Part shown: piece after piece, positions 16,148 to 20,939 of the stretch
Numbering within the stretch: position 1 is the stretch's first letter
Layout of the letters: each line of letters opens with the position of its first letter
DNA from: Candidatus Manganitrophus noduliformans
GTDB lineage: Bacteria; Nitrospirota; Nitrospiria; SBBL01; Manganitrophaceae
Direction of reading: 5' to 3'
DNA length: 64,000 nt
NCBI RefSeq assembly: GCF_012184425.1
Contig: NZ_VTOW01000001.1
Span: forward strand, 992,001 to 1,056,000
Position numbers and translations under genes: made by a program
Notes under the pieces: model-generated
Databases searched by the model: none
What the model saw: only the letters and a program-made list of their open reading frames with translations
What the model was told of the DNA's origin: nothing

Positions 16148-16531
16148 ATGATGAGAACACAAAAAGCCGCATTCATCTATCTCAACCCACTCTTTCTCGT
16201 CATCTGGTTTTTCATCTGGGGAATCTGTCCCTGGGACAACACCCTTTCCGCCGCTCAGGCGGGGAACCCCGGCGCGCATGGCCATTCGGAGGCGACCGAC
16301 ACTCACCACGCCTCCAAAGGAACCGAACATTCCTGCTCCGGCTCCATTTCGTACAGCAAGAGCGATCTTGGTTCGGAGCGTTATTTGAGCCAAACGGAAC
16401 CGATCGGAATAACGGTTGTGGTTCCTGATTGTCCCGTCCGATTGAATGATCCCTCTTATTTTTTTGAATTGTCCTTCCTGCCCCGATTATTCACCGATTA
16501 CTATCAACTCTATTCCGTCTATCGGATTTGA
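16148..16531 (+). CDS. Exported His-rich protein, unknown function
   Basis: 127 residues beginning with a hydrophobic segment (LNPLFLVIWFFIWGI, then a likely cut after AAQA), then a His-rich stretch (GAHGHSEATDTHHASKGTEH) with one Cys just after it and another farther on, and an aromatic C-terminus. The clustered His suggest metal binding in the periplasm. No known family recognised. It follows FluC by 42 bases and precedes a beta-barrel gene by 46 bases, so the three are probably co-transcribed. Two adjacent ATG codons are possible starts (16148 or 16151). Confidence 0.6.
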   Translation: MMRTQKAAFIYLNPLFLVIWFFIWGICPWDNTLSAAQAGNPGAHGHSEATDTHHASKGTEHSCSGSISYSKSDLGSERYLSQTEPIGITVVVPDCPVRLNDPSYFFELSFLPRLFTDYYQLYSVYRI

Positions 16532-16577
16532 TTTTCCTCCGACCGAAGAGGTTCAATCCTTATGGAGGGGGGATCGT

Positions 16578-17366
16578 ATGTTCTATTTCTTATCAATTTT
16601 CATTTTTCTGGCGAGCCTATCCGCGCCGGCTTTCGGACAAGCCGACTATCGTAATCTCGATCCGGGGCGGCCGATCACGATTGAAGACGCCCAGCCGATC
16701 GAGTTCCGGGCATTTGAATTTTCATTCGGTTCCCGTTATGGCCGGCATCAGGAGGGGTATGAACTTTCCTTTGAGCCGGAGCTAAAGTGGGGATTCGCAA
16801 AAAACTGGCAGGTCGGGGTGAGCGGAGAGCGCGCGGTTCTGGACGACGGGCAACGAACCGACGTGTTAGCCGGGACCGAGTTTCACTTTCTCTATAATCT
16901 CAATCAGGAGGATTTTGATCTTCCCGCGATCGCATTTCGCCCGGAGTTGACCTTCGGCGCCGGCGATTTGGGAGCCGACCATCCGCACGGCGCCTTCAAA
17001 GTGATCGTCAGCAAAACGTTCGGATTCAACCGGGTTCACCTCAACGGTTCCTATACGATCGGCCCCACGGAGATCTCGGGGAGGGGGGGGGATCTCGTCA
17101 ACCGGTATTTGTATGGCATCGCCTATGAGCGGACCGCTCCCATCGAATTCTTCGTGCTGCTGTTCGATCTCTACGCGGCGGCTCCGATCGATGGGGGTCG
17201 GCGGGAGATCATCTATGACCTCGGGACCCGCATCCAGATGACACCGACCTGGGTCTTTGATGCCGGCTTCTTTCATGCAATCCGGTCGGAAGATCTCGAT
17301 TTCGGCGTGACCGCCGGTCTTTCGTATGTTTTTTCTCCGCGGTCGATTTTCCCGAAAGGACTCTGA
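16578..17366 (+). CDS. Outer membrane beta-barrel protein
   Basis: Signal peptide (MFYFLSIFIFLASLSAPAFG, cut before QADY), then alternating strands with aromatic girdles such as EFSFGSRYGRHQEGYELSF and a C-terminal strand ending in Phe-containing GLSYVFSPRSIF. It resembles the MetA-pathway/transporter-type barrels often found beside metal or solvent export genes; the cargo is unknown. GGAGGGGGG lies before ATG 16578, which is why I prefer this over a longer frame beginning at 16446 that would read through without a signal peptide. Its stop codon overlaps an ATG-containing stretch before the next gene. Confidence 0.72.
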   Translation: MFYFLSIFIFLASLSAPAFGQADYRNLDPGRPITIEDAQPIEFRAFEFSFGSRYGRHQEGYELSFEPELKWGFAKNWQVGVSGERAVLDDGQRTDVLAGTEFHFLYNLNQEDFDLPAIAFRPELTFGAGDLGADHPHGAFKVIVSKTFGFNRVHLNGSYTIGPTEISGRGGDLVNRYLYGIAYERTAPIEFFVLLFDLYAAAPIDGGRREIIYDLGTRIQMTPTWVFDAGFFHAIRSEDLDFGVTAGLSYVFSPRSIFPKGL

Positions 17367-17377
17367 TGGGAGGTAGG

Positions 17378-18487
17378 ATGAAAATGTTCAAGGTCTTCAC
17401 CGTCGCTTTACTTATATTTTGTGCGGTTCTTCCAGTCGAGGCGCGGATTGAAAAAAGGGAGGCGATCTTTTATCTGCCGGGACGCTACAATTTTGCCACG
17501 CAGCGGGTCTATCCTGAATTGAATGCCATGCTCAATGTCATCGACATCGGCCATGGCGCGCTTGCAGAGGTCTTAATCACCACGAAAGACGAAGCCAGGG
17601 CGATCGAGTTGATCGAAAAAGATCTCTTCAATCGGGTTACCCGGATGTTTCTCGGAAAAGAACCCCGTCCCCGGTTTTCGCCCTCGGAAGAGACCGTGGC
17701 GCCGGAGGGGGTGAAGCTCGCCTGGCGGGTGAACAAGGCGTTCGATTGGACCCATTACCTTCATCGTCAGGTGTATGATATTCTTTCCGACGATCGGGTA
17801 GCGGATAAGGATCAATCGATCCGCGAGGCGCTCGGCTACTATCTCACCGAGCTGGAGCGGACCTTTCCGCTCAAGATCAAATCGATGCAGTTGATGGAGG
17901 GACAGTCATTCTCCGGCTACTGGAAGGAGAGATATCCCCGGTTCAACGGGGCGATCTGGGCCTATCACTGGCTGCAGCTCGCCGCGAACGAAGCGTTGCT
18001 GGAGCCCGACCCGGAGGCCCGCCGGCGAAAAATCGACACCGCCGTCGGTGAATTCAAAAAAATGTTCGCAGATCCCTCGCGCCTTCCGAAGCATATGCCG
18101 ATGGCGCACGAGATCTCGCCCACCTTCGCAAAGCGCTTCCCGGAGATCGCCGCCACCTTTGACAATCTTCACAGCTTCCACGACATCTACATGGACATTT
18201 TGACGAATCCGGCTGTCCGAAACAAACGGGACGCCGTCTATCGGCAGCTTGATCTGATGCAGGCGCCGAGGAAAGATCTGGAGACGATGCCGCTTCACCC
18301 CCTGCCGCCGATCCCGATCGAGCAGCAACAGACGTTGCTTCAGATGGATCCGGAGGAGGCGATGGCGATGATGATGATGACGACCGAGGAACAACTGGAT
18401 TTCCTGGAGATGTCGCCGGAAAAACGGAAAGAGAAGGTCGACCAACTCAAAAAAGAGGCCGACCATTCCGGGCATTCGGGGAGTTGA
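17378..18487 (+). CDS. Exported protein of unknown function, His/Met-rich C-terminus
   Basis: 369 residues after a clear signal peptide (MKMFKVFTVALLIFCAVLPVEA). The body is helical and full of His, Trp and Tyr (FDWTHYLHRQVYDIL, WAYHWLQLAANEALL, HMPMAHEISPTF); near the end is a Met-rich acidic stretch (DPEEAMAMMMMTTEEQLDF) and a His-containing tail (DHSGHSG). No CxxCH haem motif and no family that I recognise. Start chosen at ATG 17378 because GGGAGG is 7 bases upstream; a 17366 ATG would overlap the barrel gene. The His and Met content hints at metal handling in the periplasm (inference). Confidence 0.7.
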   Translation: MKMFKVFTVALLIFCAVLPVEARIEKREAIFYLPGRYNFATQRVYPELNAMLNVIDIGHGALAEVLITTKDEARAIELIEKDLFNRVTRMFLGKEPRPRFSPSEETVAPEGVKLAWRVNKAFDWTHYLHRQVYDILSDDRVADKDQSIREALGYYLTELERTFPLKIKSMQLMEGQSFSGYWKERYPRFNGAIWAYHWLQLAANEALLEPDPEARRRKIDTAVGEFKKMFADPSRLPKHMPMAHEISPTFAKRFPEIAATFDNLHSFHDIYMDILTNPAVRNKRDAVYRQLDLMQAPRKDLETMPLHPLPPIPIEQQQTLLQMDPEEAMAMMMMTTEEQLDFLEMSPEKRKEKVDQLKKEADHSGHSGS

Positions 18488-18536: not shown

Positions 18537-20714
18537 TTATCCGGAGATCCGGCGGATTTCTTCAAAGATATTTCCCATCCATCGATAGACGTTGTTGACC
18601 CGGATCTGCTCCCGCATCTCCTCCATCAGGACCTTCTTGATGGAGGGGGGCATCCCGAGCGAGGTCTTGATCGCTTCCGCGAGACCTTCCACGTCGTATG
18701 GATTGATCAAGAAGGCCCCTTTCATCTCATCGGAAACGCCGGCCAATTCGCTGACGAGAAGCACCCCCCGCTCGTCGGTTTGGGAGGCGATGAATTCCTT
18801 TGCCACCAGGTTCATTCCGTCCGCGAAAGAACTGATGATCGCCAGATCGGCGGCGCGATAGTAGATCGCCAAGGTTTCAGGGGGAATGTAGATCGGCCGG
18901 TAATCAAGCGGTTTCCATCCGTCGACCCCGTGGCGCTCGTTGATTTCCTGGGAGGTTTTCAGAAGGGTCTCCCCATACGTCCGGTAATCGGTCATCTCCG
19001 TCCGGCTGGGCGACGCGATCTGGATGAAGGTGAATTTTTTCTTGAATTGCGGATAGCGGGTAAAGAAGAGGTCGATCGCGTTAAAGCGCTCGACGAGGGC
19101 CTTGGTATATTCAAGCCGATCGACGCCGATTCCGATCGATCCCTCCGCCCCCAGGGCGAGCCGTTTCCGGAGCGCTTTCATCTCCTCTTCGGCTTGCGGG
19201 ATGGTGGCGAGACGGATCCATCCCTCCGCATCGATGCTGATCGGGAAGGCCTTTACCCAGACGGTCCGTCCGCGATAGGAGATCGACCCCCGTCCGGAGT
19301 CGACCGGAAGGTTGAGGATTTGACGGACGCATTCAAGGAATTGGTCTCGGTAGAACGTGGTTTGAAAGCCGAGCAGGTCGCAGCAGAGGAGCGATTCGAG
19401 CAGCTCCTTCCGGCAGGGGGCGACTCGATAAACGTCGTACGAAGGCCAGGGGATGTGCCAGAAAAGGGAGAGGGTCGCGTTCGGCCGCTGCTCTCTCAAA
19501 ATCATCGGAGCGTGCGCCAGATGATAGTCTTGAATCCAGACGATCGGGTCGCGCCCTTTGGTTTCGGCGAGGACCGCTTCCGCGAAACGCCGGTTGACCT
19601 CTTTATAATATCGCCAGTCCTCCTCCATAAATTGAACCTTATCCATCGCCTTGTGGAAGAGGGGCCAGAAGAAGCGGTTTGAGAAGCCGTGATAGTAGTG
19701 GTCGATCTCTTCCTCGGTCAGCCAAATCCGCTTCAGCGTGTAGGCGGGCTGGTGGGGGGGGACGACGACCTTTCCTTCCGCATCGGCCGCATCGCGATCG
19801 GCGTCGCCGCTTCCCCAGGCGACCCAGAGGCCGCGCGCCGCCTGCATCACCGGATCGAGGGCCGACGTCAAACCGCCGGCGGGACGGTCGCAGCGGATCT
19901 CTTCGTCCATCCAACGATGGACATACGGCTCGCGGTTTGAAACCAAGACCAGCATTCGATGGGAGAAGTTCGCCTCGATCCCCTGCCGCACCTTGGCGCT
20001 GTCCCAGATTTCATCGCGGGAGGAGGTGGTGATCACGCCATGCGCGATCCGGCGGTTGGGGATGAGATAGGTCTGTCCGGAGGGGGATTGAATCCGCGTC
20101 GTCCGCCAGGAAACCTCCAGGACGGTTCCTTCCTCCCCCGAGTGGAGTCGGATCCGATCCCCGACCCGAAGACGTCTTTCCGCAAGAAGGTGGTATCCGG
20201 CGGCCGTGTCGGAGAGGGTGTCTTGGAATGCGAGAACGGTGGCGAGGCCGCCGATGCCGATTACAGTGAGAATGGGAGAAATGGGGAAATCGATTTTCAG
20301 AAAAAGAAGCAACACGCCGAGGAGAACGAAGAGAGCATAGACCCCGTTGAAGACCGATTTGCTGATCGGCGCGGCGATCCCCTTTTCCCTTAAGAAGCGC
20401 CGGATCACCCAAATCGAGAACTCGATCGCCATGAGGGTGCCGGTTGCAAAGAGGTAGAGGTCCAGAAGTTTGTCGGCATGTTTCAATGCCCGAGGCTGAT
20501 CTGGGAGGTGGGTCAGCAAGACATAAACGCCGAGAACCGAGGGCCAGTAATAGGAGAGCCGCCCCATCCGGCGGGCCAGATCCCCCAGATCTTCCGAAGC
20601 GGTGAGTTGCCGCAGTAGAAACTTTCGGAGAAAATGTGCCGAAGCCATGACCACGCCGGCCAAACCGAAAAGAAAGGCCAACTCCCAGGGAAACGCTTCC
20701 AGTAGTTTAGTCAT
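18537..20714 (-). CDS. Fusion of MscS-like channel and trehalose-6-phosphate synthase
   Basis: One continuous 725-residue frame. Residues 1-235 form an MscS-type module: five hydrophobic segments (about 11-30, 53-70, 84-105, 124-140, 146-165), then the MscS pore helix and beta domain (AFQDTLSDTAAGYHLL, RLRVGDRI, IPNRRI). The MscS C-terminal vestibule domain is absent. From about 253 follows a GT20 trehalose-6-phosphate synthase: LVLVSNREP, PAGGLTSAL, IQDYHLAHAP (Asp396), FWHIPWPS (His420), GVDRLEYTKAL (Lys538) and DGMNLVAKE (Asp632). All main OtsA substrate-binding positions are present. It makes trehalose-6-phosphate from UDP-glucose (or another NDP-glucose) and glucose-6-phosphate, a route to the osmoprotectant trehalose. 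No otsB phosphatase is adjacent. A membrane-tension-coupled synthase is inference. Confidence 0.9.
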   Translation of the reverse strand: MTKLLEAFPWELAFLFGLAGVVMASAHFLRKFLLRQLTASEDLGDLARRMGRLSYYWPSVLGVYVLLTHLPDQPRALKHADKLLDLYLFATGTLMAIEFSIWVIRRFLREKGIAAPISKSVFNGVYALFVLLGVLLLFLKIDFPISPILTVIGIGGLATVLAFQDTLSDTAAGYHLLAERRLRVGDRIRLHSGEEGTVLEVSWRTTRIQSPSGQTYLIPNRRIAHGVITTSSRDEIWDSAKVRQGIEANFSHRMLVLVSNREPYVHRWMDEEIRCDRPAGGLTSALDPVMQAARGLWVAWGSGDADRDAADAEGKVVVPPHQPAYTLKRIWLTEEEIDHYYHGFSNRFFWPLFHKAMDKVQFMEEDWRYYKEVNRRFAEAVLAETKGRDPIVWIQDYHLAHAPMILREQRPNATLSLFWHIPWPSYDVYRVAPCRKELLESLLCCDLLGFQTTFYRDQFLECVRQILNLPVDSGRGSISYRGRTVWVKAFPISIDAEGWIRLATIPQAEEEMKALRKRLALGAEGSIGIGVDRLEYTKALVERFNAIDLFFTRYPQFKKKFTFIQIASPSRTEMTDYRTYGETLLKTSQEINERHGVDGWKPLDYRPIYIPPETLAIYYRAADLAIISSFADGMNLVAKEFIASQTDERGVLLVSELAGVSDEMKGAFLINPYDVEGLAEAIKTSLGMPPSIKKVLMEEMREQIRVNNVYRWMGNIFEEIRRISG

Positions 20715-20939
20715 TGCGATCCTCCCGGCGGCTCATACAGAGCGGCGCCTTCCATCCATATTAATGGTCTCAACCTCAAAAAGCAAGAAAGGATTCGGCG
20801 CGAAGGAGGACAATGGAGGCTCTTTACAGCGCCGTGATGGGGCGTCTCATTTTTGTTCGGCTCACCCCAGGGTGCACGGTCTTCCCCTTGCCTCGATCCG
20901 TCCAAAATCGTTAGACTAGATACATTGGAGAGCGGGACC

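Follow-up and report, generated by a model that had tools for sequence, protein, structure and literature searches.

The window is a stretch of 64,000 nucleotides from the genome of Candidatus Manganitrophus noduliformans. On its minus strand, positions 18537–20714 form one open frame of 725 codons without a stop, which encodes a protein of 725 amino acids combining a module of the MscS channel family with a GT20 enzyme of the OtsA type. The start codon is the ATG at 20714, and GGGAGG, six bases upstream, is a good Shine–Dalgarno sequence (region 20715–20726, minus strand). By Pfam and alignment, residues 1–230 (20025–20714, minus strand) are the MscS module, with N-terminal membrane helices, the pore helix and the beta domain and no vestibule domain. 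The pore-lining helix TM3 was located at residues 148–182 (20169–20273, minus strand) by alignment with E. coli MscS, and the beta domain (MS_channel_2nd, PF00924) at residues 165–228 (20031–20222, minus strand; E 9e-12, 45.4 bits against a cut-off of 20.2). Sequence comparison assigns residues 231–254 (19953–20024, minus strand) to the junction and linker; from about residue 236, the linker is similar to the N-terminal helix of free OtsA from relatives of the same order. The beta domain motif IPNRRIAHGVITT is followed by the short linker and then by LVLVSNREP, the first strand of OtsA. The GT20 domain, residues 256–721 (18552–19949, minus strand; PF00982, E 3e-120), covers positions 4–472 of the 473 in the Glyco_transf_20 profile and is full length. 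An internal start at Met254, which would yield free OtsA, is unlikely; it has no well-spaced Shine–Dalgarno sequence, and the residue is Thr in genome G002.

The gene stands alone in the genus, with one convergent and one divergent neighbour. A transcription unit that combines channel, GT4 and GT20 genes is not found in the genus and occurs in relatives. Two genes of the window, 17366–18487 and 16446–17366 (both plus strand), run convergently with the fusion. They have no Pfam match and lie beside the fusion in all members of the genus that have the region.

Conservation and selection

The frame is unbroken in G000, G002, G003, G004 and G005 (80–99% identity, no stops). These five are all of the genus genomes with the complete region; the contig of G001 begins inside the gene. 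Among them, G005 is a single contig and G003 is a complete genome (CP114561.1). The original prediction of a real, unbroken fusion holds, as all five carry the joined gene intact; a stop, a frameshift or two separate genes were looked for in these close relatives, and none was found. The same intact frame in five assemblies, including the single contig and the complete genome, excludes a frameshift or an erroneous join by sequencing or assembly, and dN/dS well below 1 in every region speaks against a decaying fused pseudogene; we regard an artefact of either kind as extremely improbable.

Between the most divergent members of the genus, the enzyme is 86% identical and the channel module 70% identical. 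Comparison within the genus gave dN/dS values of 0.02–0.09 for TM3, 0.02–0.04 for the beta domain, 0.06–0.10 for the linker, 0.06–0.08 for the enzyme and 0.3 for the first membrane helices; the values are rough, as synonymous sites are near saturation against G004. Purifying selection on the pore helix and the beta domain is therefore no weaker than on the enzyme. Selection on the channel core differs from the pattern of a mere membrane anchor.

Outside the genus, no match across both parts of the fusion was present among the matches listed from 396 Nitrospirota genomes. A search of named genomes returned two records only, both from Manganitrophus, and a search of viral contigs returned none. 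None of 471 matching plasmid records spanned 80% of the query, and none of the three plasmid OtsA genes inspected carries MscS. Our literature search found no paper on an MscS–GT20 fusion, and the comparative genome paper on Manganitrophaceae nowhere mentions trehalose or mechanosensitive channels.

The channel module and the enzyme

The MscS superfamily is defined by homology over about 90 residues, comprising the pore helix and the upper vestibule (beta) domain (PMC4560390). E. coli MscS structures align to residues 91–236 of the fusion, so that the homology includes the pore helix, and the fusion falls within the superfamily. The C-terminal alpha/beta domain and barrel of canonical MscS (MS_channel_3rd, PF21082) are absent from the fusion, where GT20 takes their place; PF21082 is present in the operon MscS proteins of relatives described below. 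A channel part with pore helix and beta domain and without the vestibule had been predicted, and the presence of PF00924 and absence of PF21082 bear this out. The superfamily definition does not demand the PF21082 domain, and TcMscS from Trypanosoma cruzi likewise lacks it. L157 and L161 of the fusion align with L105 and L109, the gate leucines of E. coli MscS. TM3 thus keeps these leucines, and it also keeps the GxGGLA motif and a Gln. Three pore positions are changed, G108 to V, G113 to D and N117 to D (E. coli numbering). The AlphaFold model (six-row alignment, mean pLDDT 64.9) is good for the enzyme; the helices of the MscS module are present in it at low confidence, with pLDDT of about 25–59 in the membrane part. 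The model is thus reliable for the enzyme only and does not bear on ring formation or the geometry of the linker.

The GT20 part was predicted to be a complete OtsA with all catalytic positions intact. Its completeness is confirmed by the profile coverage. As to the catalytic positions, eleven were compared, and all are identical to E. coli OtsA (R10, G23, Y77, W86, D131, H155, R263, K268, R301, D362 and E370, E. coli numbering from Met1); the statement applies to these eleven. Against the NCBIfam OtsA equivalog (TIGR02400), the fusion scores 428.6 bits, below the cut-off of 564.85. As this cut-off is missed, the name T6P (trehalose-6-phosphate) synthase is not certified; the enzyme is of the OtsA type within GT20 and, judged from its sequence, is likely a T6P synthase.

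Relatives, related fusions and origin

Across Nitrospirota, MscS and trehalose genes lie together in a conserved operon (loci L113–L117, L120–L126, L130, L133, L136, L037–L039 and others), usually in the order MscS–DUF5752–TreT–OtsA–OtsB. OtsA and OtsB are often fused, and a sugar ABC importer follows in some cases. In a sample of 52 OtsA loci of the phylum, chosen without regard to MscS, 23 have a same-strand MscS gene close by, against an expectation of about 1–3 that uses an assumed number of MscS genes per genome and an assumed 12-gene neighbourhood, with related genomes that are not independent. Together with further loci, MscS lies beside trehalose genes in at least 18 families. From its place in these operons, DUF5752 appears to be a trehalose-pathway protein; no paper on DUF5752 was found in our literature search.

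A second MscS fusion involves DUF5752, the gene that follows MscS in the operon. Four other families (f19, f30, f34 and f41) encode an MscS module without a vestibule that continues into DUF5752 (L139:9575–10957, L142:9584–10966, L145:8789–10168, L140:3877–5268 and L149:9725–10855, all minus strand). The cut lies behind the IPN motif of this domain's beta part, exactly where it lies in the OtsA fusion. The modules of the DUF5752 fusions form a separate clade in the MscS tree (100/100), which makes the two fusions independent events; the pore helix of the DUF5752 fusions has lost the GxGGLA pattern, which the OtsA fusion retains. At the N-terminal point where OtsA is joined to MscS in the fusion, many other OtsA proteins of the phylum carry a different module, in which two membrane helices flank a likely periplasmic domain (L041:4087–4890, L049:6170–6926 and similar). 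It looks HAMP-like by eye and has no confident Pfam match. In G023, the start of such a two-helix OtsA overlaps the stop of an MscS gene by 4 bases. In these proteins, as in the fusion, OtsA is anchored in the membrane through its N-terminus, with the same attachment point; their module, however, is not related to MscS and resembles the input of a sensor kinase. Taking both fusions and the two-helix modules together, N-terminal tethering of trehalose enzymes to membrane modules recurs.

In the tree of MscS modules, the fusion module lies inside the clade of operon MscS proteins (95/96, inner fork 99/78) on a long stem branch of 2.65. In the OtsA tree, all fusions group together (100/100), and free OtsA of the same order is their sister group (100/99). 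Both trees point to a single joining of an operon-type channel with OtsA, in the ancestor of the sampled genus. The best explanation of the sequences is that a copy of an operon-type MscS was joined to OtsA, with loss of the C-terminal domain of MscS. The genome also keeps a full-length operon-type MscS elsewhere (L048:4391–5518). We considered and rejected the possibility that this gene is the fused module, as it is kept separately and is only about a third identical. In the genus, the operon-type MscS adjoins sugar ABC genes, with no trehalose gene there; at L048:284–5518, it lies directly upstream of genes for a binding protein, a permease and a MalK-like ATPase.

The closest known arrangement is the msc-gt-tpsp operon of Thermoproteus tenax, in which genes for an MscS-type channel, a GT4 glycosyltransferase and a trehalose synthase/phosphatase of GT20 form one unit (PMC3634074). 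The channel has 197 amino acids, and its match to E. coli MscS is confined to the membrane part (PMC3634074). Zaparty et al. (2013, PMC3634074) proposed that up-shock leads to synthesis and down-shock to release. Like the fusion, the operon ties an MscS-type channel to GT20 in one unit; there, however, the proteins are separate and GT20 is joined to a phosphatase, whereas in Manganitrophus it is joined to the channel. The operon was described as unique to Thermoproteus and Pyrobaculum (PMC3634074), but much of Nitrospirota has a similar gene order.

For the channel module, the nearest parallel is TcMscS, a heptameric mechanosensitive channel without the alpha/beta domain (PMC12334622). The TcMscS chain of 174 amino acids, present in seven copies per structure entry, matches the module of the fusion. 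In both proteins, the MscS core ends after the beta domain. TcMscS has no enzyme and fewer membrane helices than the fusion, and its heptamer is proven, whereas that of the fusion is inferred. Bacterial cyclic nucleotide-gated channels are members of the MscS superfamily with an added ligand-binding domain. Superfamily members with added ligand-binding domains have been described (PMC4560390). They share with the fusion an MscS core followed by an extra C-terminal domain, which binds a ligand in those proteins and is a complete metabolic enzyme replacing the vestibule in the fusion.

Possible mode of action

We tentatively favour a reading, built on sequence comparison, in which the fusion is a membrane-bound, probably heptameric T6P synthase with an activity or position that depends on membrane tension. 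The MscS core (TM3 and the beta domain) would form a ring with probably seven subunits, and seven enzyme domains would take the place of the cytoplasmic cage of MscS. Tension would move TM3 and the beta domain, and the linker of about 25 residues would pass this movement to the first strand of OtsA, which directly precedes the substrate-binding loop (R261). At low turgor, in the closed state, the enzyme would be active and osmolyte would be made. At high tension (down-shock), the ring would change and synthesis would fall, while the pore may release solutes. A single molecule would thus hold the circuit proposed for the T. tenax operon. In a stronger form of this reading, which we think rather doubtful, the heptameric core would directly switch seven osmolyte synthases with no signalling relay, and the phylum would repeatedly use MscS cores as inputs to the trehalose pathway, as OtsA fusion, DUF5752 fusion and operon partner. 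The conserved operon, the selection on the pore and the second, independent MscS fusion in the pathway make the proposed control of the enzyme by tension or osmotic state more likely. A ring is in line with TcMscS and with a microsporidian MscS without the alpha/beta domain, which forms heptamers (PMC11262690). Against the favoured reading, MscS of E. coli failed to insert into the membrane when both vestibule domains were missing, according to work cited in PMC11262690. The long stem branch, the changed pore positions, the poor model of the membrane part and the failure to find OtsB in the genus also count against it.

Membrane anchoring of OtsA by the MscS module, part of the original prediction, is supported by the sequence data, and the module may do just this, holding an OtsA oligomer at the membrane (for instance, close to further proteins of the trehalose pathway or of sugar transport) with no effect of tension on the enzyme. 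Unrelated membrane modules at the same point of OtsA in many relatives suggest that location alone may be selected, and the loose evolution of the first helices (dN/dS 0.3) fits an anchor. Any helix could serve as an anchor, however, and TM3 and the beta domain are conserved like the catalytic domain; such a passive role is possible, although we hold it to be unlikely. Control might also run in the reverse direction, with the enzyme domain gating or positioning the channel such that a substrate or product (UDP-glucose, glucose-6-phosphate or T6P) sets the release of solutes, as has been suggested for MscS relatives with ligand-binding domains. The gate residues of the pore are kept, and there are MscS subfamilies with added ligand-binding domains for which mechanosensitivity was not observed (PMC4560390). 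We find this improbable, as the tested catalytic residues, needless in a pure sensor, are kept; moreover, no GT20 gene other than the fusion was found in the genome, so the cell would be left without a T6P synthase.

The product is a separate question. OtsB (PF02358) was not found in the six genus genomes and is present in G006, G010, G019 and the controls; a recognisable OtsB is thus missing from the genus, which makes the final product uncertain. The enzyme may make something other than T6P, such as glucosylglycerol-phosphate, or T6P may be a signal that is not dephosphorylated to trehalose; T6P is known as an osmotic signal in Arthrobacter (PMC5685639). Besides the OtsA cut-off, the fusion also misses that of the NCBIfam glucosylglycerol-phosphate synthase (287 bits, cut-off 569), but its OtsA score is far higher and the tested active-site residues are OtsA-like. 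Other HAD phosphatases encoded in the genome also speak against these alternatives, as does TreT, which is present in four genus genomes and unlinked to the fusion (about 84 kb away in G000); TreT was not found in G004, and DUF5752 was not found in the genus. On this evidence, we judge a different product or a purely signalling T6P unlikely. In two relatives, G010 (L099:187–3427) and G006 (L100:405–3913), an OtsB-family phosphatase gene adjoins a putative glycerol-3-phosphate dehydrogenase gene, which might hint at glucosylglycerol instead of trehalose in these organisms.

The link between channel and trehalose has so far been reported only from Thermoproteales and is now extended to Nitrospirota, where the operon and the MscS–DUF5752 fusion provide functional context for a family of unknown function. 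Bacteria switch osmolyte synthesis on and off within seconds of a turgor change, and a natural protein in which a channel core and an osmolyte enzyme are covalently joined would make the link between the two directly testable in one purified molecule. The manganese-oxidising genus has one channel–enzyme protein where its relatives have separate neighbouring genes, which suggests a physical tie between pressure and the making of trehalose.
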